DNA from: a virus
Reading direction: 5' to 3' (one strand)
Virus record (IMG/VR): IMGVR_UViG_3300025778_000033
Span: 1-41,504 of that record
Length of the DNA stretch: 41,504 nt
Under the pieces are notes generated by a model that was given only the letters and a program-made list of their open reading frames with translations, had not been told where the DNA came from and made no database searches. The position numbers were made by a program, and so were the translations under genes. Shown in pieces: positions 4,213 through 38,246 of the stretch. Every line of letters begins with the position of its first letter. Position 1 is the first letter of the stretch.

Positions 4213-5073
4213 CTAATTGAATTCAGTATATACATTCTCTTTCTTATCAATGCTCTCAATATGTTTCACATCATCTAAATACATTTCGTATTCACAATCG
4301 CTACACATATCACAAGCCCACTCTCTATTGTAAACTACATCGTCTACTTCCTTCCACTCATTACAGCATTCACAAATGGCGTAGTCAAACCCTTCGCCAG
4401 ACTCAGTAACTTCCTCAACCTCAAACTCATCTTTGTTGTATTTGTATGTTGTCTTGCTATTACTGACTTTATCCTTATCATACCAATCATCAGCCCAACC
4501 ACCATAAGGTTTGTAGTTGTAGGTTACTCTCTCTCGCTTGTAAGAGGTGTTAGAGAACCATGCACCCTTGTTAGACCACTCGCCAGCTTTCTCATTAAGA
4601 ATAAAGTAGTCGCCATTGTCATCAAGGAATACAAACTTATTACCAAATCCTATGGTGTACTCAATCATATTCATAATAGCATTGTTCTTATAGAAGTTAT
4701 AAGGCAATGGCTTCATGAGATTGTTGTTGAATATTTGGGTATCGTTTTCCTTGCTACCACTTGGCACATCAATATCTAATATACCATTGTGACAGAAGTA
4801 TAGGTTCTTATGTACCTTGAATGGGTGGCAATTATATTCATTGATACCACCACTCGTTGCGATACGGAAGTGAATAACAACAGCTGAGTCATACTGACTA
4901 GCTTCGGTTATATACTCATAGAACTTCTCAAAGGATTTCATTTCCTTCTTAACGATTATCTTTTTATTGTGGGCATACATAATACCCCCGCCATGACCAT
5001 TGTTATCCCAACAGTTTTGTAAATATTGTTTACTGATTATATTACCCTTTGGTTGTACTGCAATTACACACAT
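4213..5073 (-). CDS. Class II glutamine amidotransferase (GAT-II) with C-terminal zinc ribbon
   Basis: The 286-residue product begins MCVIAV; removal of Met would expose Cys2 as the N-terminal nucleophile that defines Ntn-type glutamine amidotransferases. Further family features are HFRIATSGG (68-76), which sits at the glutamine site, HNGIL (95-99) and a following NDT (110-112). These enzymes release ammonia from glutamine for a partner synthetase. Residues 234-260 hold a zinc ribbon (C234, C236, C237, then C254, C257, C260) with the string CCNEW, which recurs in the amidoligase encoded three bases upstream. Gene adjacency and the shared ribbon suggest that the two act as one complex. Such GAT-II and amidoligase pairs are known in bacteria and phages from comparative genomics; the substrate here is unknown. 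Confidence 0.8.
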   Translation of the reverse strand: MCVIAVQPKGNIISKQYLQNCWDNNGHGGGIMYAHNKKIIVKKEMKSFEKFYEYITEASQYDSAVVIHFRIATSGGINEYNCHPFKVHKNLYFCHNGILDIDVPSGSKENDTQIFNNNLMKPLPYNFYKNNAIMNMIEYTIGFGNKFVFLDDNGDYFILNEKAGEWSNKGAWFSNTSYKRERVTYNYKPYGGWADDWYDKDKVSNSKTTYKYNKDEFEVEEVTESGEGFDYAICECCNEWKEVDDVVYNREWACDMCSDCEYEMYLDDVKHIESIDKKENVYTEFN

Positions 5074-5075
5074 GA

Positions 5076-6386
5076 TTATAAGTTTTTTAGTTTGATGAAT
5101 TTTTTAAGCATCGTATATTCCGATGACTGATTAATATATTGTTTGAATTGTTCTATTGATGTATCCTTAACATCTCTAGTGAAGTTGAATAAGGCATGAG
5201 TGAACTCAATGTTCTTCATAAAGGATTGGTAGTTCAATGTACCCCTAAAGATTCGTAGTTCAATCGTGCTATGATTTTGTAGATTGATTGCCACATATCT
5301 TCTAGAGTTACCATCTTTCTTCTTAGCCTTGTAGATGATTGAGTTGTCATTCTCTTCCTCAATGGTTGCCCATCTCTCAAGCTGTTCGGTCTTGCGTTGG
5401 GATATAGAGGTAACAAAGTCTTTGTTGTCTACAAAGAACTTGATGAACCTATATAGTTGCCAAGTACCAAAGGCTTTCTTTGTTAGATGAATGTGCATAC
5501 CACAAGTGGTTGAGTCGTATGAACGATACTTAGAGGCAATTAATTTGTCAAGCATACTCTTGAATACATCTACCTTATTCTCTTGTATGTAATCTATGGT
5601 CATTGGATGTGTTACAATCTCAAAGCCATTGTTAAGACTACCATCGCTTTTAAAGTAGTAGGATGAATGCTCTATCTCCTCAGCCATTTGCTTGAGTCCA
5701 ATTCTACTCTCGTGTCTCTCTACCTCTAACTCAATACCGAAGTATAAGGCATCAGCATCCTTTAGCTTCTCATCCTTAGCCTTAAAGAATATAGGCGTAG
5801 GCTTATATGAGTAACTGTTTATCTTAGCCCCACCACGATTTTCAGAGCATCTATTACAACACCATTGGTCGGAGTCATCCTCATCGGAGTTGGAGCAGTA
5901 GTCCATAGGCCATTCATTACAGCAATCGCAACATTCAAATGTACCTATGCTATCCCTACAGCCTTCGCAAATTGTGCCTATGGTACGAACAATCCAACGT
6001 TCATAGTAGTCGGATATATACTCGTTACATCTATCACAATAGTAGGCGTGATTGTCGGTGCAAGATTCGCACCACATCTCTTCGCCAGCTCTTGTGTCTA
6101 CCCTATAAAGGCTGAGGTCATCGCCTCGTTCCTCACAGCGTTCACAATATTCTAGGTTACCATAACATCTCTCACAATAGATGTCGCCTTCATTACTACA
6201 TGAGTCATCGTTGCTGATTGCCTTGTGGCAATTACAACAATTAGCATAGTTGTCTTCAAAACATTTTTCGCATACCAACCCATCTTCGGTATCAACTGCA
6301 TCGCAGTCTTCGGTAGGCTTACTACAACTAGAGCAGATAATCGTATCGGTTACCTGATCCTCTAGAGGTTCTAGATTCTCTTCCAT
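5076..6386 (-). CDS. Amidoligase (COOH-NH2 ligase family) with multi-zinc-ribbon N-terminus
   Basis: Residues about 215-400 of 436 match the amidoligase family related to the glutamine synthetase fold: FGIELEVE (216-223), SDGSL then FEIVTHP (247-261), CGMHIHL (295-301) and IELRIFRGTL (375-384). Glu, His and Arg in these strings are the expected metal, ATP and substrate ligands. These enzymes form amide bonds between a carboxylate and an amine. Residues 18-180 hold about six CxxC-type zinc knuckles, unusually many, and probably bind a protein or nucleic acid partner. One reads ECCDCCNEW and resembles the ribbon of the adjacent GAT-II, which would supply ammonia or trim a glutamine-derived group. 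The pair ends at the terminator near 4158. The leader upstream (6387-6560) is hairpin-rich. Confidence 0.8.
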   Translation of the reverse strand: MEENLEPLEDQVTDTIICSSCSKPTEDCDAVDTEDGLVCEKCFEDNYANCCNCHKAISNDDSCSNEGDIYCERCYGNLEYCERCEERGDDLSLYRVDTRAGEEMWCESCTDNHAYYCDRCNEYISDYYERWIVRTIGTICEGCRDSIGTFECCDCCNEWPMDYCSNSDEDDSDQWCCNRCSENRGGAKINSYSYKPTPIFFKAKDEKLKDADALYFGIELEVERHESRIGLKQMAEEIEHSSYYFKSDGSLNNGFEIVTHPMTIDYIQENKVDVFKSMLDKLIASKYRSYDSTTCGMHIHLTKKAFGTWQLYRFIKFFVDNKDFVTSISQRKTEQLERWATIEEENDNSIIYKAKKKDGNSRRYVAINLQNHSTIELRIFRGTLNYQSFMKNIEFTHALFNFTRDVKDTSIEQFKQYINQSSEYTMLKKFIKLKNL

Positions 6387-7768: not shown

Positions 7769-7829
7769 TTTTACGACTCGGCTGTCGTTTAGCTTATATT
7801 TATAATTGAATATTACGGCTTAACCGATA

Positions 7830-7865
7830 TAAAAAAAGAAAGGACGCACAAAAACAGTGCGCCCC
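7830..7865 (-). terminator. Rho-independent terminator ending the structured RNA locus
   Basis: On the minus strand GGCGCAC (7858-7864 region) pairs with GTGCGTCC (7842-7849) around a seven-base loop, with one mismatch, and is followed by TTTCTTTTTTT (7831-7841). It must end a leftward transcript that covers 7870-8476, where no convincing protein gene exists. Confidence 0.7.
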
Positions 7866-8469
7866 TTCTTAGGTATAATTTTACTAACTTGAATTTTCCT
7901 TTTGTCTTGTTCTATGTGTCGTTTCCAATCTTGCGATGCTTTCACACATAGGATTGTATTATCTATTGTTTGCATTCTTTTGCTTGTTCAATAGGTCGGC
8001 CCAATCGTATCGGCTTAATATGGATTTGTTTAGTGATTACCTCAACCTACAAAAATCTATAAAAAAATCTATTGTAGGGATTCGCCTTTCTCTATCATTT
8101 AAATAGTGCGAGGTTTGACTTATAAAATTATAATATAGGCAAAAGTCGTTAGCTCATTGTCTTGAGCATCCAATTTTATCCCTTGCAAATAGCAAGGTAT
8201 TGCTTTGAATTATAGCTTTTATAAGCTATTGAGTAATGTAAGTTAGTTAGCAATTACTTTGTGAGCTTTGCTAAATTTGTAGCTCTTACAATTTACTAAT
8301 GTATGTTTGAATCCTATAAAAATAGGCTTCAATTTGTGCTACATTTAAACAATTATGAATCCCTTTTGAGGATTGTAACATATTATAAAAAATTATAATA
8401 TCATTACTATTGTTTAAATTTAGAGGGATGCAAGGTTATGAACCTTTTAGCTCTCTTAGAGCCATCCCT
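7842..8469 (-). ncRNA. Candidate large structured noncoding RNA
   Basis: Over about 600 gene-free bases I find a nearly unbroken chain of helices: 7912-7919/7944-7951 (8 bp), 8046-8052/8072-8078 (7), 8117-8121/8143-8147, 8152-8156/8163-8167, 8181-8186/8192-8197, 8212-8218/8223-8229 (7), 8232-8237/8253-8258, 8263-8267/8281-8285, and 8307-8317/8322-8332 (10 pairs, one mismatch). An 11-bp stem 8343-8353/8409-8419 encloses two hairpins (8358-8374 and 8380-8401, 9 bp). A 7-bp stem 8424-8430/8463-8469 encloses two more (8432-8446 and 8450-8462). The strand is inferred from the leftward terminator at 7830. A 51-codon ORF (7975-7820) overlaps it but runs through the terminator. Size and ornateness recall phage RNAs such as ROOL or GOLLD, but I cannot assign a class. 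Confidence 0.55.
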
Positions 8470-8476
8470 AAGTTAA

Positions 8477-8965
8477 TTACTTAACTTTTTTTACTTTGAT
8501 AGGTGCAAAGTTCTTTACTATCAAAGTTTCAACCATCCAAAACGACCACTTATTCCCATTGTTCTTTTGTCTCTCGGTATCCTTTGCACTCATAAACTTG
8601 CAAAGGTCGGATGCTGTTAACTTTTGTACTTGCGCCATTGTAACCTTTAAAGAGTGCTTAATGTTGAATTCATTAAGGTACTTTTGTCCTCTTGTTTTAA
8701 ATGATTCAAGGTTAAAATTAAAGCTAAAAATATACTTTTTATGCTCATTGTTAGCTTCAATCTTTGCACCTTGTAAAGCACTTAATTCTCTTTTTACTTT
8801 CTCAATGTATGCACCTTTAACATTCTCTTGAATGTTTGCTACATTGTTAGCACTTGTTTCCATTGTTACTTTACCACTCTTTGAGCTTTTAAGATAACTA
8901 ATGGTAGAATCTTTTTTGGTAGCTTTTTTATTGGTAGCTAAAACCAATTCATTTGTTTGCTTCAT
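8477..8965 (-). CDS. Hypothetical basic protein upstream of the structured RNA
   Basis: The 162-residue product is Lys-rich (starts MKQTNELVLATNKKATKKDS, ends in KVKKVK) with a Ser/Lys-rich N-terminal tail and a folded-looking part from about residue 50. It lacks Cys clusters and membrane spans. It is the first gene of the leftward arm, with a good TAnnTTTG promoter at 9029-9061, so it is probably made early. Its stop codon sits in a perfect hairpin (8470-8476/8481-8487) that begins the structured RNA region, so gene and RNA may share a transcript. It could bind nucleic acid; I do not recognise the family. Confidence 0.6.
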   Translation of the reverse strand: MKQTNELVLATNKKATKKDSTISYLKSSKSGKVTMETSANNVANIQENVKGAYIEKVKRELSALQGAKIEANNEHKKYIFSFNFNLESFKTRGQKYLNEFNIKHSLKVTMAQVQKLTASDLCKFMSAKDTERQKNNGNKWSFWMVETLIVKNFAPIKVKKVK

Positions 8966-9002
8966 TGTTAATTTTTTTAAGCATTAATAAATTTAAAGAA
9001 CT

Positions 9003-9029
9003 TGCATAGCTAAATCGCTATTGCATAGC
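9003..9029. repeat. Direct repeat TTGCATAGC near the leftward promoter
   Basis: TTGCATAGC occurs at 9003-9011 and again at 9021-9029, 18 bases apart. The second copy overlaps the edge of the -7 box of the leftward promoter and the first lies at or just after the expected transcription start. This is where a repressor would sit, so it is a candidate operator. Confidence 0.4.
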
Positions 9030-9061
9030 AAAGATAGTAGTAATTCACAATTAGATCCAAA
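9029..9061 (-). promoter_or_regulatory. Bacteroidota-type promoter for the leftward arm
   Basis: On the minus strand TTTG (9058-9061) is followed after 21 bases by TATCTTTG (9029-9036), matching the -33 TTTG and -7 TAnnTTTG boxes of the primary sigma factor of Bacteroidota. It faces the 162-residue basic protein gene, whose ATG is about 64 bases downstream. Confidence 0.6.
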
Positions 9062-9228
9062 TTTTTTAATAACTTTTTTTAAATATTTATTATAATAATA
9101 TTTAATTAATTGAATAACAATAAAATAAGTACAAAAATAATTTTAAAAAAATATTGAAAATATATGAATGTCAATTATAAAATGGCAATAAATATATAAA
9201 TAGATATATAAATATAAAAGAAATAAAA

Positions 9229-9375
9229 GGATATATAAATAACATACAAAGGATATAAACATATACGAACATATCAAACGATATAAGATATTATAAATAT
9301 GTAAGCATTGGATATAAAAAAGTATAAAGGGATATTTTACAAAATAGTTTTTAGTTTAATGATATTAGGATATTG
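9229..9375. repeat. Iteron-like GGATATAAA motifs in the AT-rich divergent region
   Basis: Variants of GGATATAAA start at 9229, 9251, 9279 (CGATATAAG), 9310, 9330 (GGATATTTT) and 9368 (GGATATTGT), with one more at 9625. They lie in an extremely AT-rich stretch between the two divergent arms and about 500 bases before the RepL-like gene. Repeats plus easily melted DNA beside an initiator-like gene suggest an origin, but low complexity can produce similar patterns. The rest of 9037-9228 is A/T-rich sequence without further structure I can name. Confidence 0.35.
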
Positions 9376-9489
9376 TTTTTACTATTTAGTGCGAGAAACA
9401 TAAAAATAACCAATTACCAGTTTCATATTATCTTTTTCTTTTATATAAATTACAAAATATATTTATTTATTTATATATTTAGAATAATT

Positions 9490-9715
9490 AATATGAGGGT
9501 ACACGGCTCTCCAGATCTGGATTCCACCCCTACCCCTGGGATTGTGGGGGATATAGAGTCCCCCTACTACGACTATATCTATTTGCATATAAAAAGTACA
9601 TAATCAGCTAAATTATATGCATTAGGATATAAATCCCGCTACGTCTCCCGTTGGTCGTCCTCGCTATATAAATACATATATAGGGTTGCCCTGAAACGTA
9701 ATACCAGTATAGAGG
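9490..9715. other. GC-rich islet within the AT-rich control region
   Basis: The stretch about 9497-9572 and again 9632-9700 is far richer in G and C than its surroundings. It contains the palindrome CCAGATCTGG (near 9513), C-tracts CCCCTACCCC, the hairpin GGGGGA/TCCCCC around 9547-9565 and GGGTTGCCC near 9681. A 76-codon frame (9373-9603) crosses it, but its first half is low-complexity, so I do not call a gene. It could be a structured RNA, a binding region or a recent insertion. Confidence 0.35.
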
Positions 9716-9728
9716 CTTGTTCATATTT

Positions 9729-9767
9729 TTTGACATATTTGAGCTGATATTCCTAAAAATTTGACAT
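9729..9767. repeat. Direct repeat TTTGACAT upstream of the rightward promoter
   Basis: TTTGACAT occurs at 9729-9736 and 9760-9767, start to start 31 bases, about three helical turns. Both copies lie just upstream of the promoter at 9796-9827. Same-face spacing suggests a cooperative regulator site. Confidence 0.35.
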
Positions 9768-9795
9768 TTTAACTAAATAAATATGTTATCAAATA

Positions 9796-9827
9796 TTTGG
9801 ATAGTATTCAAATTATTAGTACATTTG
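9796..9827 (+). promoter_or_regulatory. Bacteroidota-type promoter for the rightward arm
   Basis: TTTG (9796-9799), a 20-base spacer, then TACATTTG (9820-9827). The ATG of the RepL-like gene begins only four bases after the box, so the transcript would be almost leaderless unless a later start is used; the next Met in that gene is near residue 63. Confidence 0.6.
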
Positions 9828-9831
9828 ATAT

Positions 9832-37711: not shown

Positions 37712-37750
37712 TTTTGGTAGTTTCAAAATAATTACTAATTTTACATTGCA

Positions 37751-37877
37751 AATCCGATAAGGTAATGAGAGTACGTTATCGGGTTGAATAATCCCCGCAA
37801 TAGTCTCAGTATTATTGTTCTGCTTCCAATGGAAGCGTTTTAATCAACCCATCAACTCTCATTTGGTGGGTTTTTTA
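37751..37877 (+). ncRNA. Candidate small structured RNA or 3' UTR ending in a terminator
   Basis: Right after the 1211-residue gene lie four helices in a row: AATCCGATAA/TTATCGGGTT (37751-37760 with 37776-37785, 10 bp with one U-G pair), AATAAT/ATTATT (37787-37792 with 37811-37816), GCTTCC/GGAAGC (37822-37827 with 37831-37836, loop AAT), and the terminator stem. The U-G pair holds only for plus-strand RNA. A box-like TACATTG at 37742 could start it, or it may be cut from the long virion transcript. No Rfam-type class was recognised. Confidence 0.5.
37846..37877 (+). terminator. Terminator ending the internal-protein transcript
   Basis: AACCCATC (37846-37853) pairs with GGTGGGTT (37865-37872), one U-G pair, loop of 11 bases, followed by a T6 run overlapping the stem end. 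It ends the virion-interior operon and the hairpin series before it. Confidence 0.8.
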
Positions 37878-37915
37878 TTTGCCATCGGTTAGGTTTTAAC
37901 ACGTTTTTCCCTATT

Positions 37916-38224
37916 AAGGCACAACTGCCTTCTAAATGAAAGTTTGCTGTTCTAGGTACTAAAGCATGGTGCTTTTCGCATCCTATAGAAATATAGGGAA
38001 ACTTTTGACACCATGAAAATATGGCTAATGGTAAAAGTGGTAGCAATGTCTTACAGGTTGACAACTGCCGACAAGCAAAGTTTTAAAAACTCCGTTAGTC
38101 CCCATGATATAGGGATGTATTGTAGAGCTATGAATTAGCAAGTTGTAAATAAAGCTAAGGAAAATTCAGCAACTAACTTTTGCTTGGATATAAAACCTGA
38201 TATGCACCTAACCAATTAATTTAG
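37916..38224 (+). other. Gene-free stretch with further RNA-like hairpins
   Basis: Between the terminator and the fibre promoter no plus-strand gene is seen. Hairpins include AAGGCA-CAAC-TGCCTT (37916-37931), AAAGCA-TGG-TGCTTT (37961-37975), CCTATA-GAAA-TATAGG (37982-37997, a GNRA-type loop on the plus strand) and TTAGC/GCTAA (38135-38158). A 70-codon minus-strand frame (37852-38064) crosses the terminator and shows no family features. This may be a second structured RNA; I see no promoter for it. Confidence 0.4.
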
Positions 38225-38232
38225 TATATTTG
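38225..38232 (+). promoter_or_regulatory. -7 box before the fibre genes
   Basis: TATATTTG (38225-38232), 14 bases before the ATG at 38247, the same spacing as at 20275 and 21270. No -33 TTG is found at the normal distance. Confidence 0.5.
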
Positions 38233-38246
38233 TGTAAAATATTCCT

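Follow-up and report, generated by a model that had tools for sequence, protein, structure and literature searches.

The minus strand of the viral DNA analysed here (the window, the whole 41,504-nucleotide stretch of IMG/VR record IMGVR_UViG_3300025778_000033, positions 1 to 41,504) carries a lysine-rich protein gene at 8965-8477 and an intrinsic terminator at 7870-7836, with about 600 non-coding bases between them. A preliminary description had pointed to a dense chain of hairpins at 7842-8487 and proposed a large structured RNA, either of a known class of ornate phage RNAs or of a new one. The position was borne out and the chain placed on the minus strand, with the RNA running from 8487 to about 7830; the structure starts at 8487 because its first hairpin spans the stop codon of the gene. 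A coding sequence was rejected as the identity of the region, since no open reading frame of at least 60 aa exists within 7850-8470; the eight homologous RNAs described below hold chance frames of 25-45 aa, with no obvious frame in common. The locus is framed by the following features:

9061-9029, minus strand: match to a Bacteroidota-type promoter (TTTG-N21-TATCTTTG), found by pattern; presumed start of the leftward unit.
8965-8477, minus strand: gene for a lysine-rich protein of 162 aa (pI 9.9, orphan family), an open reading frame with diverged homologues.
7870-7836, minus strand: intrinsic terminator or terminal hairpin of 14 pairs, 7 of them G-C, followed by a T run.

The minimum free energy of the minus strand is -166.3 kcal/mol, against -120.0 +/- 6.4 kcal/mol for dinucleotide shuffles (z -7.2). 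The excess over dinucleotide-shuffled controls, which the preliminary description had named as a check, is therefore present: with 60 shuffles, z is -7.5 for the minus strand, -6.1 once the terminator is removed, and -5.5 when the plus strand is folded. Compared with its complement, the RNA strand has the better fold in 5/5 loci taken singly and in four of five alignments. When the whole window is scanned 200 nt at a time, 8301-8500 (z -5.9) is among the lowest minus-strand values against a genome mean of -0.6, with only 16 shuffles per scan window and with other places reaching z -4 to -6. Of the roughly 16 consecutive helices with multi-branch junctions that had been described, the chain of hairpins stands; some helices, however, are without comparative support, and the succession of Y-shaped junctions is not exceptional. 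The strict count of perfect Ys in the RNA of the window is one, a value reached by 29 of 100 shuffles, and the chain of Ys was accordingly rejected as a statistical feature of the window. The exceptional features are the covariation of the first Y and the conservation of its place, not the Y chain itself. Elsewhere in the window, a 535-nt intergenic region on the plus strand (37712-38246, folding z -3.3) includes a terminator-like hairpin and may hold another structured RNA.

The portal protein of the window is 24-29% identical to the portals of cultured Flavobacterium, Cellulophaga, Maribacter and other phages, and 75-100% identical to those of uncultured IMG/VR relatives. This similarity identifies the window as a Bacteroidota-type phage, and its host is probably a member of the Bacteroidota. 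On the minus strand of the same window, a C5 DNA methyltransferase frame (793-1755) has an in-frame stop inside its catalytic GGFP-CQ motif, with a short inverted repeat (CATGA-TGG-TCATG) beside it. At 4213-6386 (minus strand), an Amidoligase-like protein (Pfam Amidoligase_2) adjoins a weak class-II glutamine amidotransferase match, which may be an enzyme pair unusual in a phage operon.

Relatives were gathered by scans with the portal, the basic protein, two neighbours and a 79-aa neighbour protein. Eight loci, all from uncultured viruses (the window, L008, L009, L040, L043, L061, L062 and L063), contain the basic gene, the RNA and a strong terminal hairpin in the same order. The gene and the RNA occur together in all eight, and the RNA was never found apart from the gene, in a homologue search seeded partly with the basic protein and its neighbours. 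Neither is present at the start of the left operon in the relatives L048, L050 and L051. IMG/VR scans with a DNA pattern and with the basic protein alone gave few relatives, the three most divergent homologues being reached only through the 79-aa neighbour. No homologue of the basic protein was found in cultured phage records, and the genome collection gave no match to the 79-aa protein or to a DNA pattern of the RNA. A literature search, within an open-access library, brought up no report of this phage RNA.

The 5' part of the RNA consists of two elements that recur among these loci:

8487-8470, minus strand: stop-codon hairpin of 7 bp with UAA in the loop, from folding.
8469-8424, minus strand: first Y-shaped three-way junction (Y1), of equal shape in all eight homologues with differing arms; stem P1 8469-8463/8430-8424, P2 8462-8458/8454-8450, P3 8446-8441/8437-8432 (triloop).

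The stop-codon hairpin is found in 7/8 loci, with a compensatory change between U-A and C-G, the one in L061 having only 3 bp. Y1 begins 6-12 nt past the stop codon in all eight loci, with a closing stem of 7-9 bp, a first hairpin of 5-10 pairs and a second hairpin of 6-7 bp, which ends in a triloop in seven of the eight and stands 0 or 1 nt ahead of the closing strand. By comparison, a strict Y occurs anywhere in the 160 nt considered in 0.1-3.4% of shuffles; the strict detector misses L040, where the first arm has a bulge. In a hand alignment of the eight sequences, made with the structure in mind, 134 of 136 cells are paired, and two or more pair types occur at 15 of the 17 pairs. When six sequences are aligned with MAFFT, 99.1% of cells are paired and 15/19 pairs show double-sided changes. 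The covariation score of these six is 1.03, compared to 0.28 for shuffled sequences (0/500 reaching it) and 0.11-0.24 for slid partners, in a test for which the columns came from MAFFT and the structure and trimmed ends were picked by the analyst. The loop of the first hairpin, GAAAAUA, is identical in five of the eight loci, and its preservation despite differing stems suggests a tertiary contact or a protein site.

A covariance model of Y1 built from six relatives matches the junction of L040 weakly (E 0.002 in a 600-nt search) and misses that of the window, where its best match (8 bits) lies elsewhere. The junction of the window is assigned by position and shape, and the membership of the window in the family follows from position, from its 3' domain (75-81% identity over 145-210 nt) and from the covariation of that domain. 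The model gave no convincing new copies, its best match outside the family being in L067 (E 0.011); a weak match (E 0.006) is also present elsewhere in the contig of L061.

The remainder of the RNA is divided into a middle part, for which the structures of the window (8150-8419) are single-sequence folding predictions, and a 3' domain with comparative data:

8419-8343, minus strand: predicted Y2-like junction, an 11-bp closing stem with two hairpins; single-sequence minimum free energy fold, the second modules of the relatives being different.
8342-8279, minus strand: predicted Y3-like junction with a weak third arm; minimum free energy fold without comparative support.
8275-8150, minus strand: predicted simple hairpins at 8274-8247, 8229-8212, 8210-8168 and 8167-8152; minimum free energy fold without comparative support.
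8115-8039, minus strand: start of the 3' domain, a conserved CGCACUAUU..GAUAG hairpin and a long hairpin (8078-8046); from fold and identity.
8006-7952, minus strand: stem GAUUG/CAAUC (8006-8002/7956-7952) around the hairpin CUAUUG..CAAUAG (7994-7989/7968-7963); from covariation.
7951-7912, minus strand: conserved 3' hairpin CUAUGUGU-GAAAG-CAUC-GCAA-GAUUG-GAAACG-ACACAUAG; from sequence and shape.

A 30-nt block at the start of the 3' domain is 83-87% identical to L008, L040 and L043. In the stems at 7952-8006, four pairs are changed on both sides across the window and these three loci, the stem GAUUG/CAAUC of the window standing in place of GCAUA/UAUGC. The 3' hairpin at 7912-7951 is almost invariant among the same four, and in L009 and L062 its shape and the strand UGAAAGC are kept, with a change from A-U to C-G. 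Over the whole 3' domain of the window, L008, L040 and L043, 6 of 38 pairs show double-sided changes. The corresponding counts from RNAalifold are 27/67 for L061 and L063, 15/43 for L043 and L062, 11/85 for L009 and L062, and 18/54 for L008, L009 and L040. Compensatory changes in homologues, the other check that had been named, are therefore many, in pairwise and multi-sequence alignments alike, and we regard it as almost certain that a conserved structured RNA is present at this locus.

The preliminary description had seen a leftward terminator that otherwise had nothing to terminate. This no longer holds, as the promoter match (9061-9029), the basic-protein gene and the RNA together make up a leftward unit ahead of it. 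The promoter match was made with the Bacteroidota consensus (PMC7366714) and is at most suggestive as the start of this unit, considering that shuffling the intergenic region upstream of the basic gene 300 times gives a full match by chance in about 9 cases. A looser form is present at an equal distance upstream of the gene in L008, L009 and L040, and was not found there in L043, L061, L062 and L063. Since the match precedes the gene, a transcript of about 1.2 kb comprising gene and RNA is plausible. By its pattern the terminator is a real one, and a strong terminal hairpin occupies the corresponding place in all eight loci, without a U run in L061 and L063. Further elements were noted around the unit. 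Right after the terminator, the minus-strand sequence at 7789-7835 (TATATCGGTTAAGCCGTAAKATTCAATT...) is strongly conserved in five loci, with one copy in the window, and is perhaps a phage-type promoter or a 5' UTR. A hairpin with a 5-bp stem and the loop AGCCGA (7773-7788, minus strand) lies a few nt upstream of the ATG that opens the next leftward gene and recurs in L008 and L009 with other stems and the loop AGCCRA, a variant being present in L040 and L043; it is possibly a translational operator. On the plus strand, the AT-rich divergent intergenic region (8966-9831) contains a GC-rich element, GATTCCACCCCTACC (9520-9534), also found at the corresponding place in L050, and several copies of (A)GGATATA(AA) within 9228-9640.

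The layout of the unit also admits processive antitermination, in which hairpins of the put or nut kind, perhaps with the basic protein in an N-like role, would let RNA polymerase pass the terminator at 7836 and transcribe the leftward early genes beyond. A small basic protein as the first gene of the left unit, followed by the structured RNA, the terminator and more genes in the same direction, recalls lambdoid early operons. The put and nut elements are however under about 100 nt, and HK022 put is much smaller than the RNA described here. The anatomy is compatible, as the RNA lies between promoter match and terminator; a TAnnTTTG promoter match was not found between the terminator and the next gene, and HK022 put RNA provides a precedent for RNA-driven antitermination (PMC9378689). 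The terminal hairpins of L061 and L063, which have no U run, and the strongly conserved sequence after the terminator, which may hold a phage-type promoter, argue against it, and we consider antitermination improbable.

The RNA is also a mosaic. The last 320 nt of L043 are 96% identical to L040, while the earlier parts differ. The 5' part of L009 is similar to that of L008 (83% along 166 nt), and its 3' part to that of L062 (74% along 474 columns). These mosaics indicate that the RNA recombines in pieces, its 5' and 3' halves being, as judged from the alignments, swapped between phages. A mosaic of modules, good folding of both strands and a location adjoining the AT-rich divergent intergenic region would also suit an element acting at the DNA level, either as cruciforms or single-strand hairpins serving replication, packaging or recombination, or as a nest of mobile double hairpins. 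Against this, the position and orientation are fixed behind a stop codon, a promoter match and a terminator accompany the structure, and the RNA strand is the better folded one; furthermore, the sequences of the Y arms do not fall into one family, and a search of loci and records turned up no strong second copy. A DNA element is thus highly improbable.

The exchange of modules bears on whether the structure is a cis-acting 3' UTR, which would stabilise or regulate the mRNA of the basic protein (for example through autoregulation by the protein) and have no separate RNA function. The hairpin over the stop codon in seven of the eight loci agrees with this, as does the constant placement of the RNA right behind the gene, in what promoter and terminator suggest is one transcript. 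However, an elaborate covarying structure of 500-800 nt with its own 3' domain exceeds what stability or autoregulation would need, and this conserved domain, about 500 nt distant from the gene, is exchanged separately from it. A UTR role is in our view unlikely, while being the first alternative to consider. A UTR would hardly account for the size of the RNA or for a 3' domain exchanged on its own, which is why a trans-acting ribonucleoprotein is favoured, a mode of action to which we give roughly even chances.

The candidate partner in such a particle is the basic protein. The preliminary description had placed the RNA just downstream of a basic protein that may bind it, and the placement was confirmed in all eight loci, where diverged homologues of the protein are encoded directly upstream of the RNA. 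The eight proteins have a pI of 9.7-10.1 and a net charge of +9 to +18. This high pI, together with the joint presence of gene and RNA in the eight loci and their joint absence from L048, L050 and L051, gives the proposed binding indirect support. AlphaFold predicts a disordered K-rich N-terminal tail and a small helical C-terminal domain, with a pLDDT of 52 when 5 sequences are used and 69 with 8 (82-89 over most of the C-terminal domain). Searches of Pfam, PHROG and PDB and a fold search gave no match, and a recognisable RNA-binding fold is absent. In four relatives the protein is 22-33% identical to the copy of the window; the product of the 79-aa gene about 1.5 kb downstream is 81-84% identical in those four loci. 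Fast joint evolution of protein and RNA would fit an RNA-protein pair, without proving one.

We infer from these observations a family of highly structured RNAs of about 0.5-0.8 kb in Bacteroidota-type podoviruses. Leftward transcription would begin at the promoter around 9029, with the lysine-rich protein encoded first and the RNA forming the 3' part, and would end at the terminator at 7836. The RNA would fold into the stop-codon hairpin, the Y three-way junction, variable and exchangeable hairpin or Y modules, and the 3' domain with the terminal hairpin. Most likely it accumulates as a stable molecule, either cleaved from the mRNA or left on it, and joins the adjacent basic protein in a ribonucleoprotein that acts in trans; as to purpose, our guess is that early in infection it provides a scaffold for a host factor or acts as its sponge. 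That the locus represents a new family of ornate RNA, co-transcribed with the basic protein and acting in trans with it, seems to us an evenly balanced proposition. The more specific reading, in which an autonomous phage RNA and a dedicated, co-encoded basic protein form a particle whose RNA modules are swapped while the protein co-evolves, is put forward tentatively and is somewhat less probable. In either form the locus would offer a ready-made RNA-protein pair whose binding, assembly and function are directly testable, and the finding that phages swap RNA modules intact illustrates a way in which RNAs of this sort may evolve.

As to known RNA classes, Rfam searches with the window and its seven homologues gave no family at gathering thresholds, nor a relevant one at relaxed thresholds where these were tried, which supports the new-class option of the preliminary description; taken with the folding excess and the compensatory changes, the proposal of an ornate phage RNA is upheld. 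No tRNA was found in the 41.5-kb window, tRNA and tmRNA were discarded as identities of the RNA, and so were group I and II introns, riboswitches, 6S RNA and RNase P RNA, for which no Rfam match was obtained. The Rfam covariance models of GOLLD, ROOL and OLE match neither the window nor the homologues. The RNA is non-coding and phage-borne, and its structure is kept by compensatory change, as in large structured phage ncRNAs. It is best read as a new family of this known kind, resembling GOLLD and ROOL at most in outline. A divergent member of such a class, missed by the Rfam models, would share its size, its phage location and, as in GOLLD, a conserved 3' and variable 5' part (PMC12286853); considering the lack of any Rfam match even at relaxed E-values and of a tRNA in the window, there is only a slim chance of this.

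Large phage RNAs without an assigned function are few, and what they are for is an open question. The chief ones, GOLLD and ROOL, are both phage-borne and form RNA-only cages (PMC12286853). The present RNA would add to these a family unrelated in sequence, found in uncultured phages of Bacteroidota type and sharing a transcript with a candidate protein partner. It is like GOLLD in being a large ornate phage RNA. The 3' region of GOLLD is conserved and its 5' region less so (PMC12286853), and the window, L008, L040 and L043 show a similar pattern; the 3' version of L009 and L062 differs, however, and Y1, at the 5' end, is kept in all. With 0.5-0.8 kb it is however smaller than GOLLD, which often exceeds 0.8 kb and often lies near phage tRNAs, whereas none is present in this window, and it always stands behind a small basic-protein gene. 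ROOL is likewise a large structured phage-borne RNA of about 0.6 kb (PMC12286853), but it has another parts list and no identified protein partner, and the tRNA island is missing here. OLE is a large ornate RNA which works with the proteins OapB, OapC and others (PMC12286853), and was described from extremophilic bacteria, not from such phages. HK022 put, likewise structured and located in an early phage transcript, affects termination (PMC9378689); it is a protein-independent cis element of the nascent RNA. If the particle proposed above is real, this would be an ornate phage RNA with a protein partner, in contrast to the RNA-only assemblies of GOLLD and ROOL.
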